64,000 nucleotides of DNA, from assembly GCF_036287215.1 (NCBI RefSeq), contig NZ_CP142860.1, positions 2,170,001 to 2,234,000 on the forward strand, read 5' to 3'. Source of the stretch: Caproiciproducens sp. CPB-2 (lineage in GTDB: Bacteria; Bacillota; Clostridia; Oscillospirales; Acutalibacteraceae). Made by a program: the position numbers and the translations under genes. The notes beneath the pieces are model-generated. The model made no database searches and had not been told where the DNA came from. It worked only from the letters and a program-made list of their open reading frames with translations. Shown piece by piece: positions 11,908-49,811 of this stretch. The first letter of the stretch is position 1; every line of letters begins with the position of its first letter.

Positions 11908-11933
11908 CTCTTCACCTTTTTTCCTATAGCATT

Positions 11934-12024
11934 TCCAGTTGTTCCGGCAACAAGGTTGTGTTCTTCCCCGCCGAAGGCGGGGAAGAACGTGTTTCGTCTC
12001 GCAAAATGAATGAAATTGCTGTAG
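11934..12024. repeat. Dispersed imperfect palindrome, copy C
   Basis: About 91 bp in the deoC-cdd gap of the minus-strand operon. It shows CTATAGCATTTCCAGTTG at the left, GGCAACAAGGTTGTG, a TTCTTCCCCGCC/GGCGGGGAAGAA hairpin, GTCTCGCAAA, and GAAATTGCTGTAG at the right. It is the shortest copy and has the clearest terminal inverted repeats (CTATAGCA versus TTGCTGTAG). Inside an operon it could act as an RNA stem that attenuates or protects mRNA. Confidence 0.85.
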
Positions 12025-28836: not shown

Positions 28837-29886
28837 ATGGATAGAAACAAAAAAATCATTCTGACGCTCAGCGTCCTGCTGACCGCCGTCATCGTCTGTC
28901 TGGCCTTCCTCTGGATCAGATTCGGACAGCGCGCGGACAGCTACGAATGTACGAACTTCGCAATGGGAACTTATGTCCAGCAGACCGTTTATGGGAAAAA
29001 CGCGGAGACGGCGGCAACCGCTGCCGCTAAAAAAATAGGCGAGCTGGAAAACCTGATTTCGTGGAGAATCGCGGATTCCGATATCGACAGGCTGAATCAG
29101 GCTTCCGGCTCCAGCTGGGTCAGGCTCGACGCGAGGACCATCGCTCTGCTTCAAAAAAGCCTTACCGTCGCTCAGAAGTCCGGCGGGGCCTTTGACCCTA
29201 CCATCTTGCCGATTACCTCCCTATGGGATTTCGGAGGAGAGAACCAGCGTGTTCCCTCTAAGGCGGAAATCGATACCTATTTGAAATACGTGGATTATAA
29301 CAATTTAAGAGTAAACCCAAAGGATTCCGCCGCGTCCCTGAAGCTGCACTATACCGCGGTCGAACTGGGCGCGATCGGGAAGGGCGCCGCCTGTGACGAA
29401 GCAGTCGCCGCCTACCGGCAGGCCGGAGCGGACTGCGGAATCGTCGCCGTCGGCGGCAGCGTGGGAGTATTCGGCACCAAGCAGGACAAATCGCCCTGGC
29501 GTGTGGCGGTGCGCGATCCCCGCAGCTCCGAAGCGCAGAGTGCTTCCATGGGCACAATTGACCTGGCCTCCGGTTTTGTGTCCACTTCCGGTACATACGA
29601 AAAGAATTTTACGGAAAGCGGCGTTACCTATCATCATCTTTTAAACCCGAAAACCGGCTACCCGGAAAACAACGGCCTGCTTTCCGTCACGGTAGTCTGT
29701 GACAACGGCGCGCTGAGCGACGCGCTTTCCACCGCCTGTTTTGTTTTGGGAAAAGAGAAGGGGACCGCTCTTCTGAAGGAATACAACGCCGGCGGAATCT
29801 TTATCAACAGCGATCATCAGGTATTCGTCACGGATAATCTTGTAAATTCTTTTAAAATTGTCGAAAAGCAATATATTTTTAAATAA
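28837..29886 (+). CDS. apbE: FAD:protein FMN transferase ApbE
   Basis: A 349-residue membrane-anchored enzyme that attaches FMN covalently to a Thr (or Ser) of RnfD and RnfG. It has an N-terminal anchor (about 8-27), the NFAMGTYVQQ start of the domain, a Gly-rich VELGAIGKGAACDEA loop, GGSVGVFG, HHLLNPKTGYP and the C-terminal metal/substrate motif DALSTACFVLG. In clostridia apbE usually sits directly before rnfC; here 5.1 kb of other DNA intervenes. The last 200 bp of the coding sequence plus the stop and downstream bases are repeated before rnfC. The full-length copy is intact. Confidence 0.93.
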   Translation: MDRNKKIILTLSVLLTAVIVCLAFLWIRFGQRADSYECTNFAMGTYVQQTVYGKNAETAATAAAKKIGELENLISWRIADSDIDRLNQASGSSWVRLDARTIALLQKSLTVAQKSGGAFDPTILPITSLWDFGGENQRVPSKAEIDTYLKYVDYNNLRVNPKDSAASLKLHYTAVELGAIGKGAACDEAVAAYRQAGADCGIVAVGGSVGVFGTKQDKSPWRVAVRDPRSSEAQSASMGTIDLASGFVSTSGTYEKNFTESGVTYHHLLNPKTGYPENNGLLSVTVVCDNGALSDALSTACFVLGKEKGTALLKEYNAGGIFINSDHQVFVTDNLVNSFKIVEKQYIFK

Positions 29887-29920
29887 AACGAGTTAAAATT
29901 CAGAATATTAAAATCTTTAT
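29688..29920 (+). repeat. Direct repeat, left copy: apbE 3' end
   Basis: 233 bp covering the end of apbE and 34 bp after its stop. It matches 34643-34874 with only about five differences. Homology begins at CACGGT(A/G)GTCTGTGAC and fades after AATCTTTAT. Confidence 0.95.
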
Positions 29921-30000
29921 AACCTGTATTCTAAGGCTTTGCTTCGTAAGGTGGTATACCAAAGTAAGAATCAATCACACAGGATAAAGGAGAATTCAAA

Positions 30001-31164
30001 ATGCATATTTCCACTCAAAGTGCACAGCAAATTGTGAACGAGATAAGTACTATTGTCAAGCAGCATGTAAATATGATGGATGCACAAGGTTATATTATTG
30101 CCAGTACCGATTCGAGCCGTGTAGGGAATTACCACGAAGGTGCAAAAAAGATCATTGACGAGCATCTTACGGAATTTTATGTGACTCCCGAAACAGAAAC
30201 TCCTTTCACCCGCGCCGGACTCAATCTTCCCATAATCATCAACGGTGAGACCATCGGCGTTATAGGCATCACCGGCGGGTACGAGCAGGTTTTTAACTAT
30301 GGGCAGATTGTAAAAAAAATGACGGAAATTCTGGTGCGGGAAAGCTACGCCCGGGAGCAGGAGCGGTTTGACAAGAAGATTGAAAGCCGTTTTTTGGAAG
30401 ACTGGATTCTGGGTACAGGCGCAGAGTTGGGCCACGCCTTTATTGAAAGGGGCGTCGCACTGCACATTGACATCACCCGTCCAAGGCGGGTCATGGTGCT
30501 GCGGCTTGCAGACTTTCAACGCCTTGCCGGCACCGGAGAGGGGCAGAAGGTGATTGAAAAGATAGAGCAGGCTGTCCGTCAGTTTATCTGTGAGGAACCG
30601 GGAAATGTCTATTTGCGCCTTACTACGAAGCAAATTTGTTTGGTAATGCCTCGCAGTGACATTCAGATGCGTGCATTAGCAGAAAAACTTTGTCAACATA
30701 TCCATAGTTTATTTGATGTGACGCTTTTCGCGGGAATTGACAATGGGGAGACCGGTACAACTGACGTCCGAGGCGCCTATATCAAGGCCAATAAAGCATC
30801 TCATGCCTGTAACGTGCCCGCTTACTGCATTATGCTGTACGACCAAATTAACATGGAAATATTCATGGAGGAGATTCCAAAGGTATTGAAAGAAGAATAC
30901 CTGCGTAAAATATTTGCAGGCTGCAGCTTTGAAAAAATGCGTAACTGGATTGCTATTTTAGAAGTTTACTTTCATGCCGAAGGTTCCATCCGCTTATCGG
31001 CTGAAAGGTTGTTCATGCATAAGAACACCCTACAATACAAACTGAAGAAACTGGAAGAATGTACCGGTTATGACGTGCGCCTTCCCAGTAACAGCGCAAT
31101 TTTTTATATTGCTGTTTTGTTTTTTCGGGATATTCAAAAAGAATTGCTTATTTTGGGCAATTAA
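30001..31164 (+). CDS. CdaR-family sugar-diacid/glycerate regulator
   Basis: A 387-residue activator of the CdaR type: an N-terminal diacid-recognition domain (about 5-135, ISTQSAQQIVNEIS and GVIGITGGYEQVFNYG), a GGDEF-like middle and a C-terminal PucR-type helix-turn-helix (LFMHKNTLQYKLKKLEE, near 340-356). CdaR proteins respond to glycerate, galactarate or glucarate and activate permease and kinase genes, which is exactly what follows. The ATG follows AAAGGAG. Confidence 0.9.
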   Translation: MHISTQSAQQIVNEISTIVKQHVNMMDAQGYIIASTDSSRVGNYHEGAKKIIDEHLTEFYVTPETETPFTRAGLNLPIIINGETIGVIGITGGYEQVFNYGQIVKKMTEILVRESYAREQERFDKKIESRFLEDWILGTGAELGHAFIERGVALHIDITRPRRVMVLRLADFQRLAGTGEGQKVIEKIEQAVRQFICEEPGNVYLRLTTKQICLVMPRSDIQMRALAEKLCQHIHSLFDVTLFAGIDNGETGTTDVRGAYIKANKASHACNVPAYCIMLYDQINMEIFMEEIPKVLKEEYLRKIFAGCSFEKMRNWIAILEVYFHAEGSIRLSAERLFMHKNTLQYKLKKLEECTGYDVRLPSNSAIFYIAVLFFRDIQKELLILGN

Positions 31165-31366
31165 TACAATAGAACTGATGATTTTTTAATTATGATGTTA
31201 TGGGTAATATAAATTCAAGGCTAATTGTGTTATATAGGACATATACAATCTTTCCGCAATGTTATAATATAGGTTAAAGAAAGAGAGTTTGTGCAAAGAT
31301 TTTAGGAAAATTGCCGAACTCGCGAAAGCTGTTATAAGCTTGAATACATTGTAGGAGGGTAATTTT

Positions 31367-32770
31367 ATGTCTGGAATCGGTCTAATTATTGCGTTTGTTA
31401 TTGCGATCATTGTAATGATACTGGCAATTTCAAAGCTGAAAGTCCATCCATTTTTGTCCATCATGAGCGTATCCCTTATTTTGGGACTTGTTGCGGGAAT
31501 TCCACTGACAGATGTCGAACAAGCCGACGGTACGGTGGTGCAGGGTCTGGCCAACGTAATCGGCGCAGGCTTCAGCGGTACATTCACCAGTATCGGTATT
31601 GTAATTATTTTGGGTGCCCTGATCGGCACTATCCTTGAGGCGACGGGCGCGGCTTTTAAGCTGGCTGATATGGTTATCAAATTGGTTGGACCCGACCATC
31701 CCGACCTTGCCATGCTGCTTATGGGCTGGGTTGTGTCAATCCCTGTGTTCTGTGACAGCGGCTTTGTCATCTTAAACCCAATTCGCAAAGCTTTGGTACA
31801 GCGTACCCGCAAAAGCAGCGTTGCTATGACGGTTTGTCTGTCGGCCGGTTTGTATGCTTCTCATGTATTCATACCTCCAACGCCGGGGCCAATCGCGGCT
31901 GCCAATACCCTTGGCATTGGCAACAATCTGCTTTTAGTAATGGGTATGGGTGCCCTTGTCTCTATTCCAGCTCTTGTGGCAGCTTATTTTTATTCCAAAT
32001 ACATCAGTAAAAAAGTGAAAGCCGCTGATGAGTATGATGCGAAGGCAGCGGACGGCGAAATCATAAAGACCTATGAGCAAGTCGTCGCAGAATACGGCCG
32101 TCTGCCAAACGGGGCCCTTGCACTTAGCCCAATCATTGTTCCCGTTTTGCTTATGGCTCTCGGTTCCATTGCTTCTATGTCCAAATGGACCGGTTCAGCG
32201 CTCATCATGTGTACGTTCCTCGGCACTCCCATTATCGCCCTTGCCATAGGAACCCTGTTTGGCGTATGGCTGCTGGTGGACACCAAACAAATGAAAAAGT
32301 TCTACAATATCACCGATGAAACTTTAAAAACCGTTGGGCCGATCCTGTTTGTCACCGCAGCGGGCGGCGTGCTTGGCAAGGTGATTGCCGTATCCGGTAT
32401 GGTACAGTTCATCACATCCAATGCATCGCTTTTGCAGACAGTAGGCATCTTCTTCCCGTTCCTTTTGGCAGCTATCCTCAAATCTGCGCAAGGTTCCTCA
32501 ACCGTTGCTATTACAACCACAGCCGGCATCATGGCTCCGCTGATGGATCTTATGGGGCTGGGGGTGCCTGTTCTGAGCGCTCTTACCGTAATGGCCATCG
32601 GCGCCGGTGCAATGACCGTCTCCCATGCAAACGACTCCTATTTCTGGGTTGTTACCAATTTTGGCGCATTGAAGCCGGAACAGGGTTACAAAACACAAAC
32701 TATGGTTACTTTGGTTGAAGGTGTTGCCGCAATGGCAGGCGTTTTTGTCCTATCGCTCTTTTTACATTAA
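31367..32770 (+). CDS. GntP-family permease, probable glycerate or gluconate:H+ symporter
   Basis: A 467-residue protein with about 12-14 helices. It shows the GntP-family pattern: a hydrophobic N-terminus, the CDSGFVIL motif, FIPPTPGPIAAA (near 167) and SAQGSSTVA-TTTAGI (near 370). The start follows AGGAGGGTAA. Lying between a CdaR regulator and glycerate kinase, it most likely brings in glycerate; gluconate is the alternative. A candidate TATAAT box lies near 31265 in the 200-bp leader. Confidence 0.88.
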   Translation: MSGIGLIIAFVIAIIVMILAISKLKVHPFLSIMSVSLILGLVAGIPLTDVEQADGTVVQGLANVIGAGFSGTFTSIGIVIILGALIGTILEATGAAFKLADMVIKLVGPDHPDLAMLLMGWVVSIPVFCDSGFVILNPIRKALVQRTRKSSVAMTVCLSAGLYASHVFIPPTPGPIAAANTLGIGNNLLLVMGMGALVSIPALVAAYFYSKYISKKVKAADEYDAKAADGEIIKTYEQVVAEYGRLPNGALALSPIIVPVLLMALGSIASMSKWTGSALIMCTFLGTPIIALAIGTLFGVWLLVDTKQMKKFYNITDETLKTVGPILFVTAAGGVLGKVIAVSGMVQFITSNASLLQTVGIFFPFLLAAILKSAQGSSTVAITTTAGIMAPLMDLMGLGVPVLSALTVMAIGAGAMTVSHANDSYFWVVTNFGALKPEQGYKTQTMVTLVEGVAAMAGVFVLSLFLH

Positions 32771-32802
32771 ATTGCCCATTCGGCTTTTACGATACTATTT
32801 CT

Positions 32803-32838
32803 GGGACGGTAAGAGAGATTACCGTCCCAATGCTTTTA
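32803..32838 (+). terminator. Stem-loop between permease and kinase genes
   Basis: A 10-bp stem GGGACGGTAA/TTACCGTCCC with a 6-nt loop, then AATGCTTTTAA. It may partly terminate or stabilise the permease mRNA before the kinase. Confidence 0.6.
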
Positions 32839-32875
32839 ACCCTGTAACCACACACAAAGGAGAACGGAGAACATT

Positions 32876-34006
32876 ATGAAAAAGGTCTTACTAATCCCTG
32901 ATTCTTTTAAGGGGACGATGTCGTCCAGTGAAATATGCACCATTATGGAAAAGTCCATTCATCGTTATTACCCCCATGCGGAAATAATCAGCATTCCAGT
33001 GGCAGACGGCGGTGAGGGAAGTGTGGAATCCTTTTTAACTGCCGTTGGGGGTGAAAAGGTGCAGCTTTCTGTAAAAGGACCCTATTTTGAAGAGGTACAG
33101 AGCTTTTACGGGTGTTTGCCTGACCATACTGCAGTAGTGGAAATGGCTGCCGCGGCAGGTCTGCCTCTGGCAGGGGATAATCGACATGCAGAAAAAACCA
33201 CAACCTACGGTGTCGGTCAGTTGATAGAGCATGCGGCAAAGGCGGGCTGTAAAAAAATTATTGTCGGTCTTGGCGGCAGTGCTACCAATGACGGGGGCGC
33301 AGGTGCTGCGGCTGCGTTAGGTGTCCGCTTTATGAATGCAGAAGGCCAATCTTTTATCCCTGTCGGCGAAACTTTATGCAACATTGCTTCAATTGACGTC
33401 AGCGGACTCAGCCCGGCTCTTGCGGGAGTAGAGTTGATCACAATGTGCGATATTGACAACCCTCTGTGCGGACCCCAGGGCGCCGCAGCGGTATTCGGAC
33501 CGCAAAAAGGTGCAGATGAGGCGATGGTAAAAGTGCTGGATGGCAATCTTACGCATATGGCAGCGGTGGTAAAAAGAGATCTGGGGAAAGACATCATTCA
33601 TCTTGCAGGCGCCGGCGCCGCAGGCGGAATGGGCGGCGGTATGGTGGCTTTTTTCGGCAGCAGGCTGCAAATGGGCATTGAAACCGTGCTGGATACGGTT
33701 CATTTCAATTCGCTTCTTGAAGGCGCGGATTTGGTATTTACTGGCGAGGGTAAAATCGATTTTCAATCGCTGCGCGGCAAGGTAGTGATCGGTGTAGCAC
33801 GCCGCGCAAAAGAAAAGGGAGTCCCCGTTATCGCCGTTGTGGGTGATATTGGTGATAATATTGAAGGAATGTACGATCAGGGGGTCAATGCCATTTTCAG
33901 TATCAATCGTGTTGCGGTACCGTTTGACGAAGCAAAAAAGCGCAGCAGGAGCGACCTCATGCTTACTATGGATAACCTTATGCGCCTTATTTCACTGGTT
34001 GGGTAA
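32876..34006 (+). CDS. Glycerate 2-kinase (GarK/GlxK family)
   Basis: A 376-residue kinase phosphorylating D-glycerate to 2-phosphoglycerate for glycolysis. Family motifs: IPDSFKGTMSS, VADGGEGSVESF (near 43), VGLGGSATNDGGAGAAAALG (near 133), MCDIDNPLCGPQGAA and FTGEGKIDFQS (near 289). The length is normal and the ATG has AAAGGAGAA upstream. It completes the sense-import-phosphorylate cassette. Confidence 0.93.
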   Translation: MKKVLLIPDSFKGTMSSSEICTIMEKSIHRYYPHAEIISIPVADGGEGSVESFLTAVGGEKVQLSVKGPYFEEVQSFYGCLPDHTAVVEMAAAAGLPLAGDNRHAEKTTTYGVGQLIEHAAKAGCKKIIVGLGGSATNDGGAGAAAALGVRFMNAEGQSFIPVGETLCNIASIDVSGLSPALAGVELITMCDIDNPLCGPQGAAAVFGPQKGADEAMVKVLDGNLTHMAAVVKRDLGKDIIHLAGAGAAGGMGGGMVAFFGSRLQMGIETVLDTVHFNSLLEGADLVFTGEGKIDFQSLRGKVVIGVARRAKEKGVPVIAVVGDIGDNIEGMYDQGVNAIFSINRVAVPFDEAKKRSRSDLMLTMDNLMRLISLVG

Positions 34007-34050
34007 TTATCTGCCATGGAAAAATTCAGTTAATAAAAAATGTAAACTTT

Positions 34051-34450
34051 ATGGGTGAAGGCGGAGTTATCATCACAACAATGCAGCCGGCACGACGGGG
34101 ACAAGTTCATGAAGGTGCAAGGAGAATTATGTCCGGAGAAATTGATGAACTTGCCATTGGTATGGAGGATGCAAAAAAATTACAGGGCACATTACTCGGC
34201 TACAATAGGGTTGTTGCCTGTATAAGCAAAGCGAATAGGCTGTATCGGCCTGTCAGGATACCCGAAAAAAATGCGTCCGTTTCAGCATCTGGCAACTATC
34301 ATTGTTAGGAAAGAGTTTGAAAAGTTCCAGGCGACAAACCGCAAACAAGAAGTTCTTGCGAATGTCGTAGGCGAAATTGATAAACATCGTCTGCCCTACA
34401 AGAAATATCTGCCGGGAGCGAAGATTTTTTTCAGCATTCAAAGAAATTGA
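34051..34450 (+). other. Unrecognised coding remnants in the insert
   Basis: Two short plus-strand frames: 34051-34308 (85 residues, containing GARRIMSGEIDELAIG) and 34271-34450 (59 residues, containing RKEFEKFQATNRKQEVL and LPYKKYLPGAKIFF). They overlap in different frames; neither has a convincing ribosome site. They look like pieces of broken genes brought in with the insertion. No family is recognised. Confidence 0.4.
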
Positions 34451-34458
34451 AGATATGA

Positions 34459-34647
34459 CGAATCTATCTGGTTCAAAATCTGTACAACCGGTCGGACATG
34501 GCGACCATGACGCAAGTCATCGACAGCCGCGCCTTTTCGGAATTTTGCGGAGTGGAATCAAGCAATCAGGCGCCGGATGGAGATACCATCGGGCGGTTCC
34601 GCGCGCTGTTAGTGGAGCACGGCCTGCAGGAAAAGCTGTTTGCACGG
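34459..34647 (+). mobile_element. IS5-family transposase N-terminal fragment
   Basis: Reading RIYLVQNLYNRSDMATM, then VIDSRAFSEFCGV, then PDGDTIGRFRALLVEHGLQ gives about 62 residues of the N-terminal (DUF772) region of IS5-type transposases. It is preceded by a stop, lacks a start and is cut at LFAR, where the sequence passes into the apbE tail at CACGGTGGTCTGTGAC. The catalytic DDE domain is missing, so it is inactive. Terminal inverted repeats are not visible. Confidence 0.8.
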
Positions 34648-34874
34648 TGGTCTGTGACAACGGCGCGCTGAGCGACGCGCTTTCCACCGCCTGTTTTGTT
34701 TTGGGAAAAGAGAAGGGGACCGCTCTTCTGAAGGAATACAACGCCGGCGGAATCTTTATCAACAGCGATCATCAGGTATTCGTCACGGATAATCTTATAA
34801 ATTCTTTTAAAATTGTCGAAAAGCAATATATTTTGAAATAAAACGAGTTAAAATCAGAATATTAAGATCTTTAT
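34643..34874 (+). pseudogene. Truncated second copy of the apbE 3' end
   Basis: It encodes only the last 65 or so residues of ApbE (VVCDNGALSDALSTACFVLG onward to KQYILK), stop at 34839-34841, and the first 30 bp of the original downstream region. Its junction with the transposase remnant shows microhomology. It is followed by what looks like the original apbE terminator and the rnfC leader, so this end keeps the ancestral neighbour. Confidence 0.93.
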
Positions 34875-34919
34875 GTTCTATATTCTCAAACACATTCCGG
34901 CAACATTCGTTTCCCGCAG

Positions 34920-34953
34920 CACGTCTGTGGACAAACTCTGCAGGCGTGTTTTT
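34920..34953 (+). terminator. Terminator downstream of the apbE tail, before rnfC
   Basis: CACGTCTG/CAGGCGTG stem (one G-U pair) with a 13-nt loop, followed by a run of five T. It would originally have ended or attenuated apbE transcription before rnfC. Confidence 0.6.
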
Positions 34954-35014: not shown

Positions 35015-36355
35015 ATGGAATTGACATTTCCGGCCAAGCCATTCAAAACGCATGGCGGTGCGGACGTTCCCCACAATAAGAACACGGCGCAGACTGAGTC
35101 CGCCGTGATGCCGCCTCCGGCACAGGTGGTGCTGCCCATGCAGCAGCATGCAGGCGCTCCCTGCGCTCCGCTTGTAAACGTCGGCGAAACCGTTCTGGTG
35201 GGACAGAAAATTGCGGACAGCGGCGCATTCATCAGCGCTCCGATTCATGCGAGCGTCTCAGGCAGAGTCAGCGCGATCAAAAAGGTCATGCTGCCCGGCG
35301 GACAGTACACCGACGCGGTTGTCATCGACTCCGACGGTCAGATGGCCGTTTCCCCGGACGTAAAACCGCCGGCAACGGAAACGCCGGAAGCGTTTACGAA
35401 GGCGATCCGGGAATCGGGGCTGGTAGGACTTGGCGGCGCGGGGTTCCCGGCGCACGTAAAGCTCCATGTTCCAAAGGATAAAAAGCTCGACACCATGATT
35501 GTCAACGCGGCGGAATGCGAACCGTACATAACAGCGGACAACCGCGAGGCGATTGAAAATTCCTGGGATGTGCTTTCGGGGATTTACGCCGTGGCGGATC
35601 TGTTAAAGCTGGAACGCGTGATCATTGCCGTTGAAGACAACAAGCCGGACGTCATTGAAATTCTGAAAAAAATCGCGGACAGCAAAACAAACGACCCGGA
35701 AGACCGTGTGCGCATTCTTCCCCTGCACGCGCGTTATCCGCAGGGCGCTGAAAAGGTACTGATCAAGGCCTGTACGGACCGCGAAATCCCGATGGGAAAG
35801 CTGCCCGCCGACGTGGGCTGCCTCGTGATGAACATTACCTCTGTTTCCTTTATTGCCAAATACCTGAAAACAGGGATGCCGCTTGTGACAAAGCGGGTCA
35901 CCGTCGACGGATCGGCGATCCGGAATCCACAGAATGTCATTGTCCCAATCGGCACAAAGATCGCCGACATGATTGAATTCTGCGGCGGGTACCGGTCGGA
36001 GCCGAAAAAACTTTTAATGGGCGGCCCCATGATGGGTCTTGCCCTGGCCAGCGACGAGCTTCCAGTGTTGAAGCAAAACAACGGTATCCTCGCGTTCGGA
36101 GAAAAGGAAGCCCGGATGAACGCGCCGACCGCCTGCATCCGCTGCGGCCGCTGTGTGGACGGCTGTCCTATGAATCTGATCCCCACGCAGCTTGAAAAAT
36201 ACTCCAATGCCAAGGATGTTGAAAAGCTTCAGGAATATGACGTCATGACCTGCATGGAATGCGGCACCTGCGCCTTCAACTGCCCGGCGGGCAGACCCCT
36301 TGTACAGGCCATCCGGCTTGGCAAGGGACTGGTAAAAGCGGGAGGTAAAAAATAA
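35015..36355 (+). CDS. rnfC: Rnf complex subunit RnfC
   Basis: A 446-residue soluble NADH-binding subunit of the Na+/H+-translocating ferredoxin:NAD+ oxidoreductase. It has the RnfC N-terminal barrel-sandwich region, a flavin/NADH-binding domain (GLGGAGFPAHVKL, AAECEPYITADNR), an SLBB segment and two C-terminal [4Fe-4S] motifs, CIRCGRCVDGCP (near 374) and CMECGTCAFNCP (near 412). The ATG has GGAGG upstream. It is the first gene of rnfCDGEAB. Confidence 0.95.
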   Translation: MELTFPAKPFKTHGGADVPHNKNTAQTESAVMPPPAQVVLPMQQHAGAPCAPLVNVGETVLVGQKIADSGAFISAPIHASVSGRVSAIKKVMLPGGQYTDAVVIDSDGQMAVSPDVKPPATETPEAFTKAIRESGLVGLGGAGFPAHVKLHVPKDKKLDTMIVNAAECEPYITADNREAIENSWDVLSGIYAVADLLKLERVIIAVEDNKPDVIEILKKIADSKTNDPEDRVRILPLHARYPQGAEKVLIKACTDREIPMGKLPADVGCLVMNITSVSFIAKYLKTGMPLVTKRVTVDGSAIRNPQNVIVPIGTKIADMIEFCGGYRSEPKKLLMGGPMMGLALASDELPVLKQNNGILAFGEKEARMNAPTACIRCGRCVDGCPMNLIPTQLEKYSNAKDVEKLQEYDVMTCMECGTCAFNCPAGRPLVQAIRLGKGLVKAGGKK

Positions 36356-40077: not shown

Positions 40078-40164
40078 GCCGGTGTGATGGAATTGGCAGA
40101 CGTAGTGGACTCAAAATCCACCGGTAGCGATACCGTGCCGGTTCGAGTCCGGCCACCGGCACCA
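40078..40164 (+). tRNA. tRNA-Leu (anticodon CAA)
   Basis: An 87-nt class II tRNA: acceptor GCCGGTG/CACCGGC, a D-arm region GATGGAATTGGCAGAC, anticodon stem GTGGA/TCCAC with loop CTCAAAA (anticodon CAA, reads UUG), a long variable arm, and T-arm GGTTCGAGTCC. The 3' CCA is encoded. A terminator follows directly. Confidence 0.95.
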
Positions 40165-40317: not shown

Positions 40318-40338
40318 CGAGTCCGGCCACCGGCACCA
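40318..40338 (+). repeat. 21-bp copy of the tRNA-Leu 3' end (candidate attachment site)
   Basis: This stretch repeats positions 40144-40164 of the tRNA exactly (CGAGTCCGGCC...GGCACCA), 174 bp downstream. The sequence between has no tRNA fold. A small hairpin and T run follow. It fits the attR left by an element that integrated in the tRNA and later lost its interior, or a partial duplication. Confidence 0.75.
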
Positions 40339-41402: not shown

Positions 41403-41432
41403 GACCTTAAATTGATGAAAGAGGTGCATGGG

Positions 41433-42554
41433 ATGCAATCGGTCAAAAGAAATATTCTTCTTACTCCCGGGCCGGCAACAACAACCGACACGGTTAAAAT
41501 GGCACAGGTCGTTCCGGATATCTGCCCCAGAGAACGGGAATTCGGGAATGTCATGGAATGGATTCGCCAGCAGCTGACCCGCATTGTACATGGGGATCCC
41601 GCAAAATATACCGCCGTGCTGTTCTGCGGGTCGGGTACTATAAATATCGACGTCGCAATCAATTCGCTTTTGCCCGCGGAGAAAAAGATTCTGTTTCTGA
41701 ATAACGGATTCTACAGTTCACGCGCGGTCGATGCCTGTCAGGCCTATGGGCTGCCGTATGTGGAACTGAATTTTCCGATTGACGAGCTGCCCGATCTGGA
41801 GCTTACGGAAAAAACTCTTCAGGCCAATCCCGATATTGCGATTGTATACACCACCCACAATGAAACGGGAACCGGCATCCTGAATCCTGTCAGAGAGATC
41901 GGCGCGCTGGCTCACCGGCACGGCGCCGTGTTTGTGGCCGACACAACATCCACCTACGCGCTGCTTCCCATCGACATGGAACGGGACAACATCGACTTTC
42001 TGATGGCGTCCGCCCAAAAGGGGCTGATGGCTATGGCGGGCCTTTCTTTTATTGTCGGCAACGAAGCCATGATCCGAAAGACGAAGGACTACCCCACGCG
42101 TTCCTATTATTGCAATCTTTACATGCAGTACCAATATTACAAAACGACGGGACAGATGCATTTTACGCCTCCGGTCCAGACCGTTTACGCGCTTCAGAAA
42201 GCGCTCGAGGAGTTCTGGGAGGAGGGTGAGTCCGCAAAATACGCACGCCACCGCAGGGTGTGGAAAAAAATCCATGAATGCAGCGAAAGGCTTGGGCTCC
42301 GGGACATCATACGCAAAGAGCTCCAGAGCGGGCTGGTCGTTACCTTCAAATATCCCGCGGACCCAAATTGGGATCTCGATAAAATCCACGACTATTGCTA
42401 TGAGCGGGGATTCACCATTTATTCCGGCATCATTTCCGGCACTTTTCGGCTTTGCAGTCTGGGGGCGATCGATGAGCAGGATGTAGAAGATTTTTTCAGG
42501 GTTTTTGAAGCCGCGCTGCGCGTTCAAAAGATTTGCGTACCGGTTCGGTACTGA
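41433..42554 (+). CDS. phnW: 2-aminoethylphosphonate-pyruvate transaminase PhnW
   Basis: About 373 residues. A class V PLP enzyme converting 2-aminoethylphosphonate and pyruvate to phosphonoacetaldehyde and alanine. Motifs: ILLTPGPATTTDTVK at the N-terminus, CPREREFG, FCGSGT (near 68), VADTTSTY and the PLP lysine in SAQKGLMAMAGLSF (near 195). The start is placed at MQSVKRN because GAGGTG lies 6 bp upstream; an ATG six codons earlier would overlap that site. It is first in the phnW-pbfA-phnX-gntR operon. Confidence 0.92.
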   Translation: MQSVKRNILLTPGPATTTDTVKMAQVVPDICPREREFGNVMEWIRQQLTRIVHGDPAKYTAVLFCGSGTINIDVAINSLLPAEKKILFLNNGFYSSRAVDACQAYGLPYVELNFPIDELPDLELTEKTLQANPDIAIVYTTHNETGTGILNPVREIGALAHRHGAVFVADTTSTYALLPIDMERDNIDFLMASAQKGLMAMAGLSFIVGNEAMIRKTKDYPTRSYYCNLYMQYQYYKTTGQMHFTPPVQTVYALQKALEEFWEEGESAKYARHRRVWKKIHECSERLGLRDIIRKELQSGLVVTFKYPADPNWDLDKIHDYCYERGFTIYSGIISGTFRLCSLGAIDEQDVEDFFRVFEAALRVQKICVPVRY

Positions 42555-42569
42555 ACCGGGGAGCAGAGA

Positions 42570-43919
42570 ATGAATATGGAAAACCGTTGTCAAACAGAGG
42601 GAGACACGAACCTGTCGGAACTGCGCCTTACATGGCAGGAGAAATTTCTGAGCACGGAAGCAGCGGACCTGATCGAAAGGGATCGCAGGGCTTTTTTCTC
42701 CCAGTCCCTTTCAACTCCCTGTCTCAACGCCGTGCAGAGCGCCGACGGCATTTACCTGTATGATCTCGACGGAAGGAGCTATATGGACTTCCACGGAAAC
42801 AGCGCCCATCAGCTCGGCTACCGCAACCCATATGTGATGAAAGCGCTGCACGCGCAGCTTGAAGACCTTTCGTTCGTGCCGCGCCGGTACACCAGCGAGA
42901 CACCGGTCCGCCTTGCGGAACAGCTGACCGAGCTTTGGAGCGGGTGGCCCGCGAAGGTCCTTTTCGCGCCGGGAGGCTCCGAGGCGGTGGAAATGGCGGT
43001 CAAGCTTGCCAGAAGATACACCGGGCGCTATAAAACCATTTCCATGTGGGATTCCTTTCATGGGGCTACCTTAGGGTCCATTTCCGTGGGCGGCGAAAGA
43101 GATTTCCGCTGCGGAATCGGTCCGCTGCTGCCCGGAGACATCCATATCCCCCCGTATAATTCCTTTCGCTGTGTGTTTGGCCGCTGCGGCGACTGCGGCC
43201 TGAAATGCCTGGATTATCTGGAATATGTGCTGAAAATGGAAGGGGACGTCGCCGCGCTGATTATGGAGCCGGTAAGGGCCACGGATGTGCAGATACCTCC
43301 CGCTGAATATTTTGAAAGAATACGGAGCCTTTGTGACCATTACGGAATTTTATTGATATTTGACGAAATTCCCACCGCTTTAGGAAGAACGGGTACTTTT
43401 TTCGCGCACGAGCATTTCGGGGTCAGGCCGGACATGGTAATTCTGGGGAAAGGCCTGGGCGGAGGCGCGGTTCCGTTTGCCGCCCTGCTGGCGGACGGAC
43501 GTTTCGACTGCGCGGGGGACATTTCATTGGGACACTTTACGCATGAGAAAAGCCCGCTGGGAGCGGCGGCGGGGCTGGCGGTAATCGAATGCATCCGAAA
43601 GGAACATCTGCTGGAGCACACGGCCGTACTCGGCAGCCTGATGGCGCGGCGGCTGAAGGATATGCAAAAACGTAATCCAATCATCGGCGATGTGAGGTGC
43701 ATCGGTTTGCTGGGATGCCTGGAACTGGCGTCAGGCCGGGAGAACGGAGAGCAGGCGGTCCGGATGGCGGAGCGCGTACTGTACCGCTGCCTTGAAAACG
43801 GGCTGAGCTTCAAAGTCTCGAAAGGCAGCTGCATCATCCTCTCTCCCCCGCTGATTGTTACGGAGGAGCAGCTTTGCCGCGCCCTCGACATTTTGGAACA
43901 GGCCATAGCCTCGCAATGA
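42570..43919 (+). CDS. Class III PLP enzyme, PbfA-like (hydroxy-aminoethylphosphonate ammonia-lyase)
   Basis: A 449-residue class III aminotransferase-fold protein with LYDLDGRSYMDFHGN, the GGSEAVEMAVKLAR segment, LIFDEIPTALGRTG and PLP lysine K294 in ILGKGLGGGAVP. Placed between phnW and phnX it matches PbfA, which eliminates ammonia from (R)-1-hydroxy-2-aminoethylphosphonate to give phosphonoacetaldehyde, thereby feeding phnX with a second substrate. A plain transaminase cannot be ruled out from sequence alone. A CGDCGLKC cysteine pair near 205 is unusual. Confidence 0.8.
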   Translation: MNMENRCQTEGDTNLSELRLTWQEKFLSTEAADLIERDRRAFFSQSLSTPCLNAVQSADGIYLYDLDGRSYMDFHGNSAHQLGYRNPYVMKALHAQLEDLSFVPRRYTSETPVRLAEQLTELWSGWPAKVLFAPGGSEAVEMAVKLARRYTGRYKTISMWDSFHGATLGSISVGGERDFRCGIGPLLPGDIHIPPYNSFRCVFGRCGDCGLKCLDYLEYVLKMEGDVAALIMEPVRATDVQIPPAEYFERIRSLCDHYGILLIFDEIPTALGRTGTFFAHEHFGVRPDMVILGKGLGGGAVPFAALLADGRFDCAGDISLGHFTHEKSPLGAAAGLAVIECIRKEHLLEHTAVLGSLMARRLKDMQKRNPIIGDVRCIGLLGCLELASGRENGEQAVRMAERVLYRCLENGLSFKVSKGSCIILSPPLIVTEEQLCRALDILEQAIASQ

Positions 43920-43958
43920 AAGCCGCCTCAGAAATTTTATGAATAAGGGGATTTAACG

Positions 43959-44768
43959 ATGCAAAAAGAAAAAATTCAAGCGGTGATCTTTGACTGGGCG
44001 GGAACGACGATCGATTATGGATGCTTTGCCCCGCTCGGCGCTTTTTTGGAGACATTCAGAAGCAGCGGCGTGGAGATTACGCTGGAAGAGGCGAGACAGC
44101 CGATGGGACTGTCGAAGATCAACCATATCCGTGCGCTGCTCGGCATGCCGAGAATAGCGGCTTTATGGAAGAAAAAATATGGAAGGCTTCCGGAGGACTC
44201 CGACGTCCGGAAGCTGTATCAGCAGTTTGTACCGGCGCTGACCGCGGTCCTGGGCAATTATTCGGAGTTGATTCCCGGTGTCGTGGAGACAGTGGAGGAA
44301 CTTCGCAAAACCGGTCTGAAAATCGGTTCCACGACGGGATATACCGACCAGATGATGAAAATCGTCGTCCCGTCGGCGGCAAAACGCGGATACGCCCCGG
44401 ACTGCGTTTTTACTTCGGACGGGCTGCCGGCAGGCCGTCCTTACCCGTGGATGTGCTATCAAAATGCCATTCGGCTCGGCGTGTACCCCATGCGCCGCAT
44501 GGTGAAGGTCGGGGATACCGTCAGCGATATTCAGGAAGGTGTCAACGCCGGCTGTTGGAGCATCGGCGTCGTGGAAGGCAGCAGCGAGCTTGGCCTGCGC
44601 CTGGAAGAGAAGGCTGTTATGAGTCCAAAAGCGTTTCAGGAAAAATGTGATGCTGCAAGGGCTCATTTTCTAAGCGCGGGGGCCCATTTTGTGATCAATA
44701 CCCTGAAAGAACTGCCCGCTCTGACAGAAAAGATCAACGGCCTGCTTTCAGAGGGGCAAAACCCCTGA
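43959..44768 (+). CDS. phnX: Phosphonoacetaldehyde hydrolase (phosphonatase) PhnX
   Basis: A 269-residue HAD-family enzyme cleaving the C-P bond of phosphonoacetaldehyde to acetaldehyde and phosphate. The nucleophile is D12 in IFDWAGTT, the Schiff-base lysine is in PMGLSKINHI (near 53), and the loops STTGYTDQMM, GRPYPWMCYQN and VKVGDTVSDIQEG are typical of PhnX. It takes the product of both upstream enzymes. The stop is close to the regulator start. Confidence 0.95.
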   Translation: MQKEKIQAVIFDWAGTTIDYGCFAPLGAFLETFRSSGVEITLEEARQPMGLSKINHIRALLGMPRIAALWKKKYGRLPEDSDVRKLYQQFVPALTAVLGNYSELIPGVVETVEELRKTGLKIGSTTGYTDQMMKIVVPSAAKRGYAPDCVFTSDGLPAGRPYPWMCYQNAIRLGVYPMRRMVKVGDTVSDIQEGVNAGCWSIGVVEGSSELGLRLEEKAVMSPKAFQEKCDAARAHFLSAGAHFVINTLKELPALTEKINGLLSEGQNP

Positions 44769-44803
44769 TGATGGGCACGGACATTGAAGGGAGAGTGAGA
44801 TTG

Positions 44804-45535
44804 ATGAGCGATGGTCACATCGTGAAAACGCAGCTGATGAAATTGAAGATTGCAGATTACGTGATGGGTTATATCCGTACCCACAGGCTGTCCACGGACG
44901 AAATGCTGCCCTCGGAAAACTCCCTTGCGACCCAGTTTGGCGTCAGCCGCAATGTCGTAAGGGGAGCGCTGGACCATTTGCGTTCTCAGGGAAAAGTATA
45001 CGCGCGCAAAGGGAAAGGCTTTTTTGTCGCGGAAAAGCAGCAGTTCATCGTCTATCAGCAGGATGTCAACGTCGGCTTTTCGGAAACATTTCAGGAGCCG
45101 GTATATCGCTATGAGAGTAAATTGCTGGCATGGACGCTGATCCGGGCCAAGCAGGTTGAAAAAAACATTTTCGGTCTTTCGGAGGGCGACCAGCTTTACC
45201 GGCTGAAAGTTCTGCGGTCCGTCATGGGTCTTCCCCTTGCCATTTGCTACTCTGAAATCCCGCAAAGAATGGTGCCGGAGCTGGAGCAGTATCTAAACAG
45301 CTTTTATTCGCTCAACGATATTCTTGTCGATAAATATGGCTACGCGCACCCGATCTGCAAGAGCGTGGCGGTCGAAGTGGTCCTGCCCACTGTTTCGGAA
45401 ATTCATCTGCTCGGCATTGATGCCGGCATCCCCCTGTTAAAGGAAACCAATGTATTCGAGGTACCCGGCGGTCCTGTGGAATATTTTCAGGTTTATGCAC
45501 GGAGCGACCGGTTTAAGCTGAAAATTAATTTTTAG
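44804..45535 (+). CDS. GntR/HutC-family regulator of phosphonate genes
   Basis: About 243 residues: an N-terminal winged helix (SENSLATQFGVSRNVVRGALDHLRSQGKVYARKG in pieces) and a C-terminal UTRA effector domain. The start at MSDGHIVK is chosen because GGGAG lies about 10 bp upstream; an ATG at 44768 overlapping the phnX stop is the alternative. It likely senses 2-aminoethylphosphonate or a breakdown product and controls both the catabolic operon and the transporter operon beyond it. A terminator follows. Confidence 0.88.
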   Translation: MSDGHIVKTQLMKLKIADYVMGYIRTHRLSTDEMLPSENSLATQFGVSRNVVRGALDHLRSQGKVYARKGKGFFVAEKQQFIVYQQDVNVGFSETFQEPVYRYESKLLAWTLIRAKQVEKNIFGLSEGDQLYRLKVLRSVMGLPLAICYSEIPQRMVPELEQYLNSFYSLNDILVDKYGYAHPICKSVAVEVVLPTVSEIHLLGIDAGIPLLKETNVFEVPGGPVEYFQVYARSDRFKLKINF

Positions 45536-45615
45536 CGATCTTAAGCCCGATACGGAAACTTCCCGTCTGCGCAGGCTTCCCCTGTATCGGCGGATCAGAA
45601 CATATTCGCTTTTCG

Positions 45616-45652
45616 GGGCGGCAGTATCCAGCTTGGATGCTGCCGCCCTTTT
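45616..45652 (+). terminator. Terminator after the GntR regulator
   Basis: GGGCGGCAG/CTGCCGCCC stem continued by ATCC/GGAT, loop of about 5 nt, followed by TTTTA. It separates the catabolic operon from the transporter operon. Confidence 0.88.
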
Positions 45653-45732
45653 ACCTGCGGAAAACCCTCAGCAACGTACTGAAGCAATACGCTGCTGCTA
45701 ATCGGTACGGAAATAGAGTTAACTGGTTTTTT

Positions 45733-45785
45733 ACATCGATGGGTTGGCGCTTTAACATATGAACCCTATGATTGAAACATCGATG
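45733..45785 (+). promoter_or_regulatory. Paired ACATCGATG direct repeats upstream of the transporter operon
   Basis: ACATCGATG occurs at 45733-45741 and 45777-45785, 44 bp apart (about four helical turns), each containing the palindrome CATCGATG. They lie in the 206 bp between the terminator and the binding-protein gene and are candidate sites for the GntR regulator. No strong promoter match was found here. Confidence 0.4.
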
Positions 45786-45858
45786 ACCGAGCGTTATCGT
45801 GAAATGGCGCCTTTGGACCGGTTACAAGAATTTTGACTACTGAAAGCGGGGTATAAAA

Positions 45859-46914
45859 ATGCCAGGATTTTGGAAAAAGACCGGCTGTCTGCTGACGGCC
45901 GCAGCTCTCATGATGACCTTTGCCGCAGGCTGCTCCGGCAGCGCGGGGACGGCTTCAGCCGAGAACAAGATTATTACTTATGGACAGCCCGACGATTGGG
46001 CAAACTGGAAGGAAATGTTCGCGACCTTCAATGAAAAATACGGAACCACGCACACCGACACCGATATGTCGAGTGCCGAAGAGATTCAGAAGTTCGGCGC
46101 GGAAAAGAACAATCCTGTTGCGGACACGGCCGAAGTCGGCATGATGTGGGGACCGGTCGCCGTGCAGCAGGGCGTTACCATGCCGTATAAACACGCGAAC
46201 TGGGATAAGATCGGCGACTGGGCCAAGGATAAGGACGGAAACTGGTCCGGGCTGTACGTCGGGGTCCCCGTGTTTTTGGTGAACACGGATATCGTCAAGA
46301 ATGTTCCGAAGTCATGGAACGATTTGCTGAAGAGCGATTACAAAGACATGGTCTGCATGTCAAACCCGCAGACATCGGGCTCCGGACAAAATATGGTTCT
46401 GGCTGCGTCGTACGCTCTGGGCGGAAGCGTCACCAATCTTGACGCGTCCATGTCCTATTTTTCGAAGCTCCAGAAAGCGGGCAACATCAAGAATATCTCC
46501 GTGTCCGTCGCAACACTGCAAAAAGGAGAGGTTCCGATTTACATTGTCTACGATTTCCTGGCGAAAGGGTATCAGGAACAGCTGAAAGGGCAGGCGAATT
46601 TCTCCATCGTGTTCCCGGAGGAAGGATCTATCTGGGCGCCGGGTGCATTGATCATCAATAAATGGTCGCCTCACCCTGACAACGCGAAAAAATTCGCGGA
46701 TTTTGTATCATCGGACGAAGGACAGCTGATTTTTGCAAAAGGGTATGCGCGCCCGATCCGCTATGTGGAAGGCAACCTGCAGATCCCGGATGAAATTAAA
46801 AGCAAGATGCTTCCAGACAGCTTTTACACGAACTGCGGGAAACCGACCGAATGGGACAAGGTGGCGCCGGATGTGATCGCAGCCAGGTGGACAAAGGAGG
46901 TTTTGGGACAGTAA
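45859..46914 (+). CDS. Phosphonate (2-AEP) ABC transporter substrate-binding lipoprotein, PhnS-like
   Basis: A 351-residue lipoprotein with modified cysteine C25 (FAAGC) and a solute-binding family 1 fold (ENKIITYGQPDDWANW, VPVFLVNTD, NPQTSGSGQNM). Position before two permeases and an ATPase, next to phnWX, points to uptake of 2-aminoethylphosphonate as in PhnSTUV. The fold alone would also suit ferric-ion receptors. It is the first gene of the transporter operon. Confidence 0.85.
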   Translation: MPGFWKKTGCLLTAAALMMTFAAGCSGSAGTASAENKIITYGQPDDWANWKEMFATFNEKYGTTHTDTDMSSAEEIQKFGAEKNNPVADTAEVGMMWGPVAVQQGVTMPYKHANWDKIGDWAKDKDGNWSGLYVGVPVFLVNTDIVKNVPKSWNDLLKSDYKDMVCMSNPQTSGSGQNMVLAASYALGGSVTNLDASMSYFSKLQKAGNIKNISVSVATLQKGEVPIYIVYDFLAKGYQEQLKGQANFSIVFPEEGSIWAPGALIINKWSPHPDNAKKFADFVSSDEGQLIFAKGYARPIRYVEGNLQIPDEIKSKMLPDSFYTNCGKPTEWDKVAPDVIAARWTKEVLGQ

Positions 46915-47777
46915 TGGTCAAAATGGAGCAGGAACAGAGTCTCAAAAGCCGGAAACGGCATGTTGGAGGAGCCCTCCCGTACCTCCTCGCATTGCCCTAC
47001 CTCATCATCTGTGCCCTGTTTTTGGTTTTCCCTGTGATCTCCATCATCGTTCACAGCTTTGACAGCGGTCTGAACGGCTGGATTGCCGTTGCGCGCAACA
47101 GCACTTACGTCAGGGCTTTTCGGGGCAGCTTCCTTCTCGCTTTTTGGACGACGGCGGAAGCTGCCGTCATCGGGGGGCTGCTTGCCCTGTTCTGGGCGCC
47201 AAAGCTGTCCAAGCACAGCTGGTTCCTTGCCTTTGTTAATTTTGGCGCCCACAACGGCGGTGTGAGCCTTGCGTTCTCGTTTATAGCGACGCTGGGAACA
47301 AACGGGATGCTGTCCCTGCTGCTGAAACATATCGGAATCGGGATGCTTGCCGATTTTAAGCTGGTAAGCCTTTCCGGGCTTCACTGGGCCTATCTTTCCT
47401 TTCTGGTTCCGTTTATGTGCCTGATTTTTATGCCGGCAGTGGGATGCCTGAAACCGGAGTGGTTCGCAGCCGCCCGCACCCTGGGCGCCGGAAAGCTCCG
47501 CTATTTTCTGAAAATTGCGGGTCCGGTTCTGCTTCCCTCGTTTCTCTCCTCCACCACACTTGTTTTTCTTCAGGCAATGGGAACTTACGCCACTGCCCAG
47601 GCCATCACCGACAACCGCATCAACCTGATTACGCTTCAAATCGGCTATTTAATGCAGATGTCCGTTTTTAACCGGTCCGACGCGGATATTCTTTCGGTGG
47701 TGCTGCTTTTAATTATGATCGTTACAACCTGTATTTATGATGTTTTTAATAAGAGGGCTTCAAAATGGATTGGATAA
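46914..47777 (+). CDS. Phosphonate ABC transporter permease (PhnU-like)
   Basis: About 287 residues with six helices. The ATG overlaps the binding-protein stop by 1 bp; an upstream in-frame ATG lies inside that gene. The coupling motif AARTLGAGKLRYFLKIAG (near 185) is typical of BPD permeases. It pairs with the downstream permease as a heterodimer. Confidence 0.85.
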   Translation: MVKMEQEQSLKSRKRHVGGALPYLLALPYLIICALFLVFPVISIIVHSFDSGLNGWIAVARNSTYVRAFRGSFLLAFWTTAEAAVIGGLLALFWAPKLSKHSWFLAFVNFGAHNGGVSLAFSFIATLGTNGMLSLLLKHIGIGMLADFKLVSLSGLHWAYLSFLVPFMCLIFMPAVGCLKPEWFAAARTLGAGKLRYFLKIAGPVLLPSFLSSTTLVFLQAMGTYATAQAITDNRINLITLQIGYLMQMSVFNRSDADILSVVLLLIMIVTTCIYDVFNKRASKWIG

Positions 47778-48634
47778 AAACCGGAGGATCTTCCGATACG
47801 CGGCCGATTTCCCGGAAAGCTAAGCGTGACAGGTGGGAACGGATCGGGTTTTCTGCGGTTTCGATTTTCTTCCTGCTGTATCTTGGCATTCCGATCCTTG
47901 CAACGGTGCTGTTTTCCCTGTCGGGAAAGTGGACCGACACCGTCCTGCCGCAGTCATGGTCGCTGAATGCCTATTCCATAATTTTCGCCAGCGATGAATT
48001 TTACTCGTCTCTGTTCCGAACGATTTTTCTTTGCCTGGTTGTGGCGGTCCTGGAGGTCGCTGTGACAATCCCCGCCGTCTTCGCAATCAAAATTGGAAAC
48101 GAAGGCCTTGGAAGGCTGATTCAAATACTTTCCATTATTCCAATAGCCCTGCCGGCGGTGGTGCTGGCTCTGGGTTCCGTCAAGTTTTACGGCGCGACGG
48201 TCCCCGCCCTGCTTGGCACCCCCGCCCTCCTGATTGGGGTTCAAGCCGCGTTCGGTCTGCCGTTCGTGTACTGGACGATCTTAAATGCATTTCAGGCTGT
48301 CGATGTGGTGGAGCTCTACAACGCCGCGAGGACTCTCCGGTGCGGAACTTTGGAATTTATCATCCGGATTATGATACCCTCGCTGAAAAAAGGGATCGTC
48401 ATTGCAGGAGTCATCGCCTTTGCGAGTACGTTTGATAATTTCGCGCTCCAGCAGCTGATTGTGGGAGCCGGCTGGGAGACCTTTGCGATGTATCAGTATA
48501 AATACTTTACCATGGACGGGCATGTGGTCAGTACGCTTTCCGTGATTGGAATGCTGATCATCTTTATCATGTCGTGGATTGCGGGTTTCCAAAGCAAAGC
48601 AAAAGGAGAAAGGAAGGAGGAAGATGCTCTTTGA
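47765..48634 (+). CDS. Phosphonate ABC transporter permease (PhnV-like)
   Basis: A 289-residue permease with six helices and coupling motif NAARTLRCGTLEFIIRIMIP (near 180). It overlaps the first permease by 13 bp and the ATPase by 4 bp. The short basic N-terminus RKAKRDRWERIG is cytoplasmic. Confidence 0.85.
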   Translation: MDWIKTGGSSDTRPISRKAKRDRWERIGFSAVSIFFLLYLGIPILATVLFSLSGKWTDTVLPQSWSLNAYSIIFASDEFYSSLFRTIFLCLVVAVLEVAVTIPAVFAIKIGNEGLGRLIQILSIIPIALPAVVLALGSVKFYGATVPALLGTPALLIGVQAAFGLPFVYWTILNAFQAVDVVELYNAARTLRCGTLEFIIRIMIPSLKKGIVIAGVIAFASTFDNFALQQLIVGAGWETFAMYQYKYFTMDGHVVSTLSVIGMLIIFIMSWIAGFQSKAKGERKEEDAL

Positions 48635-49776
48635 ATCATCTGAAACTTACGGACATTGAGAAACACTATGGAAAAGTCCGTGTTTTAAATCAAATCAATC
48701 TGGAGATCAGCGAGGGCAAAATGGTTTGTTTGCTCGGGCCCAGCGGCTGTGGAAAAAGCACGCTGCTGAAAATTATCGCGGGGCTGGAGATGCCTGACGG
48801 CGGCGGCATCGAGTTCAAGGGAGTGGACTGGGGCGGTTTGGACGCCAAAAAACGCCGTGTCGGGATGGTATTTCAGCATTATTCGCTGTTCCCCAATTTA
48901 AATGCGCTGCAAAACGTTGCGTTTGGATTGGAAATGAAAAGAATGCCCCGGAAACAGTCCCAAAAGGAAGCGGAAGAATGGCTGGAGAGGGTCGGACTTC
49001 AGGACTTCAGAAACCGGTATCCGCATCAAATGAGCGGCGGGCAGCAGCAGCGGGTCGCGCTGGCCAGGGCGCTTGCGCCCAGCCCCGATCTTCTTCTGCT
49101 CGACGAACCGCTCAGCGCGCTTGACGCGGCGGTACGGCTTTCGCTGCGCGGCGAAATCCGCAGGCTCCAGCTCCAGCTTGGCATCACGGCTGTTTTTGTG
49201 ACTCATGACCAGGCGGAGGCTCTTGCGATTGCCGACCGGGTGGCGCTCATGCGGGAAGGTTCCATCGTGGAATATGACGACCCGCAGACCATGTATTCCA
49301 ATCCGAATTGTTTTTTTACATCTTCGTTTATCGGGGTGGTTTCCGTTATGGAGGGTACGATCGCATCCCTTAGTCCCCCCATTGCGAAAGTATGCAGCGG
49401 TATGGTCGCATTGCCGCACCTTGACGAGAAAAAAGCGGAGATCGGCAGAAAAATCCGAATTGTCATGCATGCCGAGGACATAGAGCTTTCCGAAAGTTTC
49501 AGTGAAAACGGGCAGATCAACCATCTGCGGGGACAAATCTACAATTTGGATTTTCTCGGAAAGACGAAAAGATATACCATCCGTTCGTCCGATGGAAACA
49601 CTTTTTTTGTTGAGGTACACGCCAACGGACATACGGATCTTCAGATCGGCCAGACGGTGGAAATGATCGTCAGGCCCGAGAATATGCATGTCTTTGATGC
49701 GCAGACCGAAGAATCCCTGAAGAATGTCGGCGGGCAGGAAAAAAGCCTTGGGAACGGATTGCTGAATACTGGATGA
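48631..49776 (+). CDS. Phosphonate ABC transporter ATP-binding protein (PhnT-like)
   Basis: About 381 residues from a TTG start that overlaps the permease stop (TTGA) and has GGAGG about 10 bp upstream; a longer reading runs into the permease. Walker A is GPSGCGKST (near 38), signature MSGGQQQRVALARAL, Walker B LLLLDEPLSALD, and the switch His is in VFVTHDQAEAL. A C-terminal TOBE/MOI-type extension (about 250-381) is present. It drives the two permeases before it. Confidence 0.88.
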   Translation: MNHLKLTDIEKHYGKVRVLNQINLEISEGKMVCLLGPSGCGKSTLLKIIAGLEMPDGGGIEFKGVDWGGLDAKKRRVGMVFQHYSLFPNLNALQNVAFGLEMKRMPRKQSQKEAEEWLERVGLQDFRNRYPHQMSGGQQQRVALARALAPSPDLLLLDEPLSALDAAVRLSLRGEIRRLQLQLGITAVFVTHDQAEALAIADRVALMREGSIVEYDDPQTMYSNPNCFFTSSFIGVVSVMEGTIASLSPPIAKVCSGMVALPHLDEKKAEIGRKIRIVMHAEDIELSESFSENGQINHLRGQIYNLDFLGKTKRYTIRSSDGNTFFVEVHANGHTDLQIGQTVEMIVRPENMHVFDAQTEESLKNVGGQEKSLGNGLLNTG

Positions 49777-49811
49777 AACAAATAGAATGGTATTGTCAGG
49801 AGGTTCATAAG

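Follow-up and report, generated by a model that had tools for sequence, protein, structure and literature searches.

Partial gene duplication beside foreign DNA is known from E. coli conjugation, where 56 of 60 clones gave a polymerase chain reaction product diagnostic of it. Fourteen clones were sequenced, with duplications of 109-950 bp that the authors explained by single crossover of a truncated circle, and 4 of the 60 clones were homology-facilitated illegitimate events (PMC3240628). In the type VI secretion system effector-immunity arrays of Vibrio, displaced 3' parts of genes were proposed to arise through homology-facilitated illegitimate recombination (PMC5361080). Both papers describe insertions in which one end is joined by homology and the other illegitimately, and a further paper reports repeats at the borders of 10-18% of small variable segments (PMC2884548). 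How does a natural locus compare with these systems? The stretch analysed here, called the window, comprises 64,000 nucleotides of the chromosome of Caproiciproducens sp. CPB-2 (NZ_CP142860.1, positions 2,170,001 to 2,234,000), and coordinates are counted from its first letter. In it, what reads as a glycerate-use cassette lies between apbE and rnfC, the first gene of the rnf cluster, and the tail of apbE occurs at both ends of the cassette. This is a clear but ordinary scar of gene transfer, and one genome does not settle the route by which it arose.

The apbE tail repeat and the site in relatives

The segment 29688-29920 recurs at 34643-34874 as a direct repeat of 233 bp with 97.9% identity. 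The five differences are at 29694, 29842, 29880, 29899 (a 1-base indel) and 29912, and the longest block without any difference is 147 bp. Beyond this core a weaker similarity extends to about 29934/34888, so that the duplicated end of apbE measures about 245 bases together with the extension. In the alignment of the window with itself, the left copy (29688..29934) holds the apbE tail and its 3' flank, and the right copy (34643..34888), an orphan tail with the same flank, starts inside a transposase fragment. The cassette genes, apbE, rnfC, both repeat copies and the hairpin described below all lie on the + strand. The left copy completes an intact apbE gene (28837..29886) of the FAD:protein FMN transferase family, with a Pfam ApbE score of 274.9 bits. 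Its best protein match is from Caproiciproducens sp. (94%) and the third from an uncultured Caproiciproducens sp. (81%). A preliminary description of this DNA had reported a doubled tail with about five differences in 233 bp and a full apbE completed by the left copy, and the alignment and the Pfam match bear out both.

To place the repeat against its background, 464 kb of the chromosome (400 kb plus the window) were compared with themselves by megablast (E <= 1e-10, identity at least 85%, length at least 60 bp). Six direct-repeat pairs were obtained, and the apbE-tail pair is the only one with a spacing of 1-20 kb; two of the remaining pairs are near-tandem and three represent one dispersed family of about 100 bp. 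The apbE-tail repeat far exceeds what chance would give. With apbE as DNA query, the whole genome gave two matches only, the gene itself and the orphan tail. A second genomic apbE as the source of the tail was therefore not found by DNA, distant paralogues not having been sought by protein.

What does the site look like in related genomes? Ten other genomes of the genus were available, and full-length rnfC is present in eight of them (all except G003 and G009). In five of the eight (G010, G002, G008, G004 and G006) the apbE orthologue directly precedes rnfC, with a gap of 113-255 bases, and in none of the eight does the cassette lie between the two genes. Since the junction is direct in five relatives and the cassette absent from this site in all eight, the cassette between apbE and rnfC is, on this comparison, a real and derived insertion. 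The preliminary description had proposed an insertion at this point together with a comparison of apbE-rnfC junctions in relatives. The comparison was run and agrees with the proposal, and the arrangement of the window is shared by none of the eight checkable genomes. The empty sites in relatives and the tail repeat at both ends place the locus, at the level of sequence, in the class of horizontally acquired insertions with partial duplication of the target gene. In the other three genomes, G001 (L040), G005 (L037) and G007 (L039), two small genes stand between apbE and rnfC; either the direct junction is derived in the other five or these genes were gained in the three.

G010 is collinear with the window on both sides of the insert. 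Its identity to the window, in 500-bp windows, is 89-97% upstream and 92-96% downstream. A shift in divergence from G010 was considered as a possible mark of a donor segment, and identity drops only where the repeat and the adjoining flank lie (90% at 29500 and 86% at 34500).

The genes between the copies

Pfam was run on every open reading frame (ORF) of at least 60 residues overlapping the DNA between the copies, 21 in all. Five of them gave matches (Diacid_rec type, GntP, Gly_kinase, a Diacid_rec remnant and the ApbE tail), the other 16 gave none, and no recombinase, replication or transfer family was found among the 21. The first gene (30001..31164) encodes a CdaR-like regulator with Diacid_rec, GGDEF-like and PucR-type HTH (HTH_30) domains, whose nearest rows are G005/UBA5408 and G309. 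It is followed by a GntP-family permease (31367..32770, by Pfam) and a glycerate kinase (32876..34006; Gly_kinase, 477.1 bits). The three families stand in this order here and in relatives, and by its gene content the set is a glycerate-use operon. The guanine-plus-cytosine content of the cassette is 40-52%, against 53-58% in the rnf cluster.

Behind the kinase gene the DNA is broken. A second CdaR-like gene survives as a frameshifted remnant (34030..34380, right end approximate), with Diacid_rec matched at 34030-34218 or 34051-34218 and, by reading, its second half in another frame. Next comes an internal fragment, without either end, of an insertion sequence (IS) transposase gene, which we take to be of IS5 type (34453..34647 by protein match, 34465-34643 by DNA match). 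At the protein level this fragment of about 180 bp is 74% identical to a 309-residue transposase in G361, over residues 44-108 of the latter. In G361 a glycerate kinase gene precedes the frame of that transposase by about 400 bp, and this layout is a hint that the kinase-IS neighbourhood may be older than the present insertion. An intact IS of the same kind was looked for in the own genome as a source of the fragment, and neither an intact nor any other copy was found at the sensitivity of the protein search used. The preliminary description had listed cdaR, gntP, a glycerate kinase and a broken transposase; the first three are confirmed by Pfam, the last is an internal fragment only, and the CdaR-like remnant between the kinase and the IS piece had been omitted.

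Where did the cassette come from? Among the 11 genomes of the genus, the own one included, the GntP protein occurs in two. The other is G005, where the operon lies elsewhere in the genome, on a different contig from apbE-rnfC. With the CdaR protein, 38 loci were collected from the genome collection. In the set of loci compared for gene order, the three genes are complete and in order at five, namely L046/L084 (apparently one 33,519-bp contig, counted once), L059, L086, L087 and L116. In a GntP tree of 27 rows the window falls in a group of seven (100/99) with G005/UBA5408, Pygmaiobacter, G309, G204 and G086. The nearest neighbours within the group are weakly resolved (81/72), and of the 26 other rows G309 comes closest, with 85% GntP identity. 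At the DNA level, 70 of the 398 genomes of the family set, own included, match the cassette at E <= 0.001, mostly in the kinase gene, and in the order set of 394 genomes there are two matches at E <= 1e-150, one of which is the own genome. The plasmid set gave one record, a 90-kb Subdoligranulum plasmid with 68% identity over 52% of the query in three pieces. The phage set gave two short records, and their match is restricted to 34459-34601, that is, to the IS fragment.

Routes of entry

By what route did the cassette enter? One map fits three routes equally: crossover of a circle, linear DNA with one illegitimate end, and one-step capture. At the right joint the sequence reads ...AAGCTGTTTGCACGGTGGTCTGTG... 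From the corresponding GC/CAC/GG, four IS relatives go on into CAGGTTGT, CAGGTGGT or CAGGTTCT, and native apbE has at the matching point CACGGTAGTC in this genome and CACAGTGGTC in G010. Compared in this way, the right joint rests on few matching bases, without long homology. The reading frame of the IS runs on as ...KLFARWSVTTAR-stop, and the 154-residue ORF leading into the apbE tail is in a different one; thus the fusion of transposase and apbE tail in the preliminary description stands at the DNA level, not as a reading frame. The left joint with the cassette falls within about 29913-29934, with no finer placement, and a crossover point on this side is not locatable because the copies are nearly identical. 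A TTATAAyCTGTAT-like stretch, compared with the region upstream of cdaR in UBA5408, hinted at a left joint near 29917; it was marginal, its spacing to the start codon differs, and it was not used.

The best explanation, on which we would place about half of our confidence, is that linear DNA was captured and its right end joined illegitimately. A glycerate-use operon, of a kind seen in several Oscillospiraceae, would have been acquired and inserted at the end of apbE. The incoming DNA would have been linear, with a right end already patchy from a broken cdaR and a broken IS. The left joint would have formed in the apbE 3' flank, by homology if the donor had an apbE tail and end to end if it had none. 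The right joint would have formed illegitimately through few matching bases (CAC, with GGTGGT nearby), at a point of native apbE that lies about 245 bp before the left joint, and the outcome would be an orphan tail and the rnfC leader left downstream of the cassette. The right joint falls in the middle of the IS fragment and several broken pieces adjoin it, which we count for linear DNA. The collinearity with G010 around a direct apbE-rnfC junction, the lower guanine-plus-cytosine content of the cassette, the occurrence of gntP in two of 11 genus genomes and the lack of another copy of the transposase, at the sensitivity of the search, also speak for this explanation. The Ku family is present in the genome, so end joining is probably available in the host; the ComEC family is also present. 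We ranked linear DNA first because a circle needs a prior illegitimate event and because broken genes make up the right end, which is a matter of judgement and not of measurement.

Several points weigh against this explanation. ComEC-family matches occur in 10 of 14 control genomes, which makes them weak evidence of DNA uptake. The laboratory study that scored both outcomes favours a circle for such structures (PMC3240628). No donor with a near-identical cassette was found in the family, order, plasmid and phage genome sets or among the 38 loci found by CdaR, and the search for a same-species genome without the insert found none.

The next explanation, possible but clearly less probable, is that a circle carrying an apbE tail of about 245 bp beside the cassette entered by one homologous crossover. 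The left copy would then, with the same tentativeness, consist of a native 5' part and a donor 3' part, and the right copy of a donor 5' part and a native 3' part. The geometry fits exactly, the E. coli clones provide a precedent with 56 of 60 attributed to single crossover (PMC3240628), and a related cassette is on the 90-kb Subdoligranulum plasmid record at 68% identity. However, such a circle must already hold both joints round an apbE fragment of the same species, and so an earlier illegitimate event is needed. In the plasmid and phage collections no record matched the tail together with the cassette, absence there being no exclusion, and replication, transfer and recombinase families are missing from the 21 insert ORFs. 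Entry of a circle by single crossover was the claim of the preliminary description; its geometry holds, but linear DNA and capture fit equally, and a circle is one possible form of entry.

Do the differences between the copies tell whether the donor brought the tail? They are denser in the 3' flank than in the coding part, as expected if the left copy has a donor allele there. With homology counted to 29934, the flank has 7 differences in 56 bp and the coding part 2 in 189 (Fisher p 0.00015-0.0006, depending on counts); counted to 29920, the numbers are 3 in 42 and 2 in 189 (p 0.003-0.04, depending on counts). If the copies had diverged in place, the coding part should differ at no less than about half the flank rate, because the right copy is unconstrained. 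At half rate, 2 coding differences of 9 have a probability of 0.016 (to 29934), and 2 of 5 have a probability of 0.17 (to 29920); divergence in place is disfavoured on the first count and not on the second. The right copy differs from G010 at 19 of 195 coding and 14 of 44 flank positions, a ratio that fits either count (P 0.35 and 0.08). By reading, outgroups agree better with the right copy at 29880 and in length at 29899, and the differences at 29694, 29842 and 29912 are ambiguous. This spread, compared across the copies, mildly favours a tail that came with the donor, hence a circle or linear donor DNA, and as a discriminator of routes it is weakly informative.

The half-rate test bears most on one-step capture, which we consider unlikely. 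A staggered break or a template switch at the end of apbE would have taken up a foreign fragment and duplicated about 245 bp of the target, and the copies would have been identical at birth and, no more probably than the route itself, diverged in place. This needs the fewest events (two joints and no donor apbE), and the patchwork right end and the Ku family are in line with it. The scarcity of coding differences speaks against it, but gene conversion could mask that divergence.

Could the locus be the relic of a site-specific element that integrated in the apbE 3' end, brought a replacement tail and was later deleted down to the cassette? Elements like e14 bring a replacement tail in icd, and the classic picture is an intact gene with a replaced tail at one side of the element and the displaced tail at the other. 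Such an origin is nevertheless very improbable here: none of the 21 insert ORFs has a Pfam recombinase match that could represent an integrase of its own, the right copy starts within the transposase fragment, and the cassette is at this site in none of the eight same-genus genomes with full rnfC. Least probable of all is an artefact of assembly or sequencing at one repeat: there is a single assembly, and a search with the 154-residue right-joint ORF gave 21 proteins. Two of the 21 were aligned, the top match (P0001) and the match that covers most of the query (P0011, 76%); both are ordinary ApbE and neither is the same chimera. Against an artefact, the genome is a single contig of 3.45 Mb, the base composition of the cassette differs, and copies with five differences in 233 bp are not one sequence doubled.

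Surroundings and comparison with described systems

Downstream of the right copy, rnfC (35015..36355; RnfC_N and Complex1_51K by Pfam) keeps its leader. Between them lies a terminator-like hairpin of 14 pairs with a 5-nt loop (34918..34950; z -2.68, with 2 of 200 shuffles as good). Similar hairpins fold in G010, G002 and G008, three of the five relatives with a direct junction, and not in G004 or G006. A simple terminator scan did not flag the hairpin; in that scan promoter-like sites numbered 14 against 8.9 expected and terminator-like sites 6 against 6.7 expected. The hairpin is likely a terminator. The upstream boundary of rnf would be kept, and this hairpin may also mark the end of the glycerate operon. 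In the preliminary description the right copy kept both the terminator and the rnfC leader; the leader stands, and the terminator is likely only.

Recombination between the two tails would loop out 4955 bp and leave the junction in its ancestral form. Such excision is mechanically possible, and the reversibility claimed earlier holds in this sense, in principle only. That RecA-dependent loop-out or tandem amplification of the 4955-bp unit goes on in a living population, switching both the use of glycerate and how far apbE stands from rnf, is improbable in our view.

A few other features of the window were recorded. Behind the rnf cluster there is a gene for transfer RNA (tRNA)-Leu (CAA) at 40078-40164, and a 20-base copy of its 3' end at 40319-40338, 154 bases on, resembles an attachment-site remnant; the G010 match stops at this tRNA gene. 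At the same place in G010 (L129, about 3718-4005) a 43-base 5' piece of tRNA-Leu is followed by about 157 bases of other DNA and then by the complete tRNA-Leu. This is a second case of partial gene duplication, on the far side of the rnf cluster from apbE. Further on, 41412-50639 holds two aminotransferases, a HAD hydrolase, a GntR regulator, a binding protein, an ABC ATPase and a phosphodiesterase-like enzyme (seven proteins scanned); by these families the group reads like one for use of 2-aminoethylphosphonate. A repeat of about 58 bases has three copies at 7984-8041, 9386-9443 and 11925-11982, with 71-74% identity to the middle one, which belongs to the dispersed family of about 100 bp with two more copies in the surveyed 464 kb.

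What does the locus mean? It is a clean natural example of an operon added beside a conserved energy-metabolism cluster without damage: apbE is whole upstream, and downstream the rnf genes retain their leader. If more strains of the species were at hand, the locus could help to distinguish the ways in which recombination brings non-mobile metabolic operons into chromosomes of Clostridia.

In gene content and order the cassette is like the cdaR-gntP-glycerate kinase operons of Oscillospiraceae and relatives (UBA5408/G005, G309, L086, L087 and L116); unlike them, it stands beside apbE and rnf and is followed by broken cdaR and IS pieces. As in the Vibrio arrays, a module arriving at the 3' part of a gene has left the old 3' part downstream; but here the same protein is kept, the cargo is a metabolic operon, and one genome is concerned (PMC5361080). 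Finally, the locus resembles the truncated-circle duplications of E. coli in that foreign DNA lies between a gene and a duplicated part of it. There the DNA was a laboratory plasmid with built-in homology (PMC3240628), whereas here it is a natural locus known from a genome sequence.

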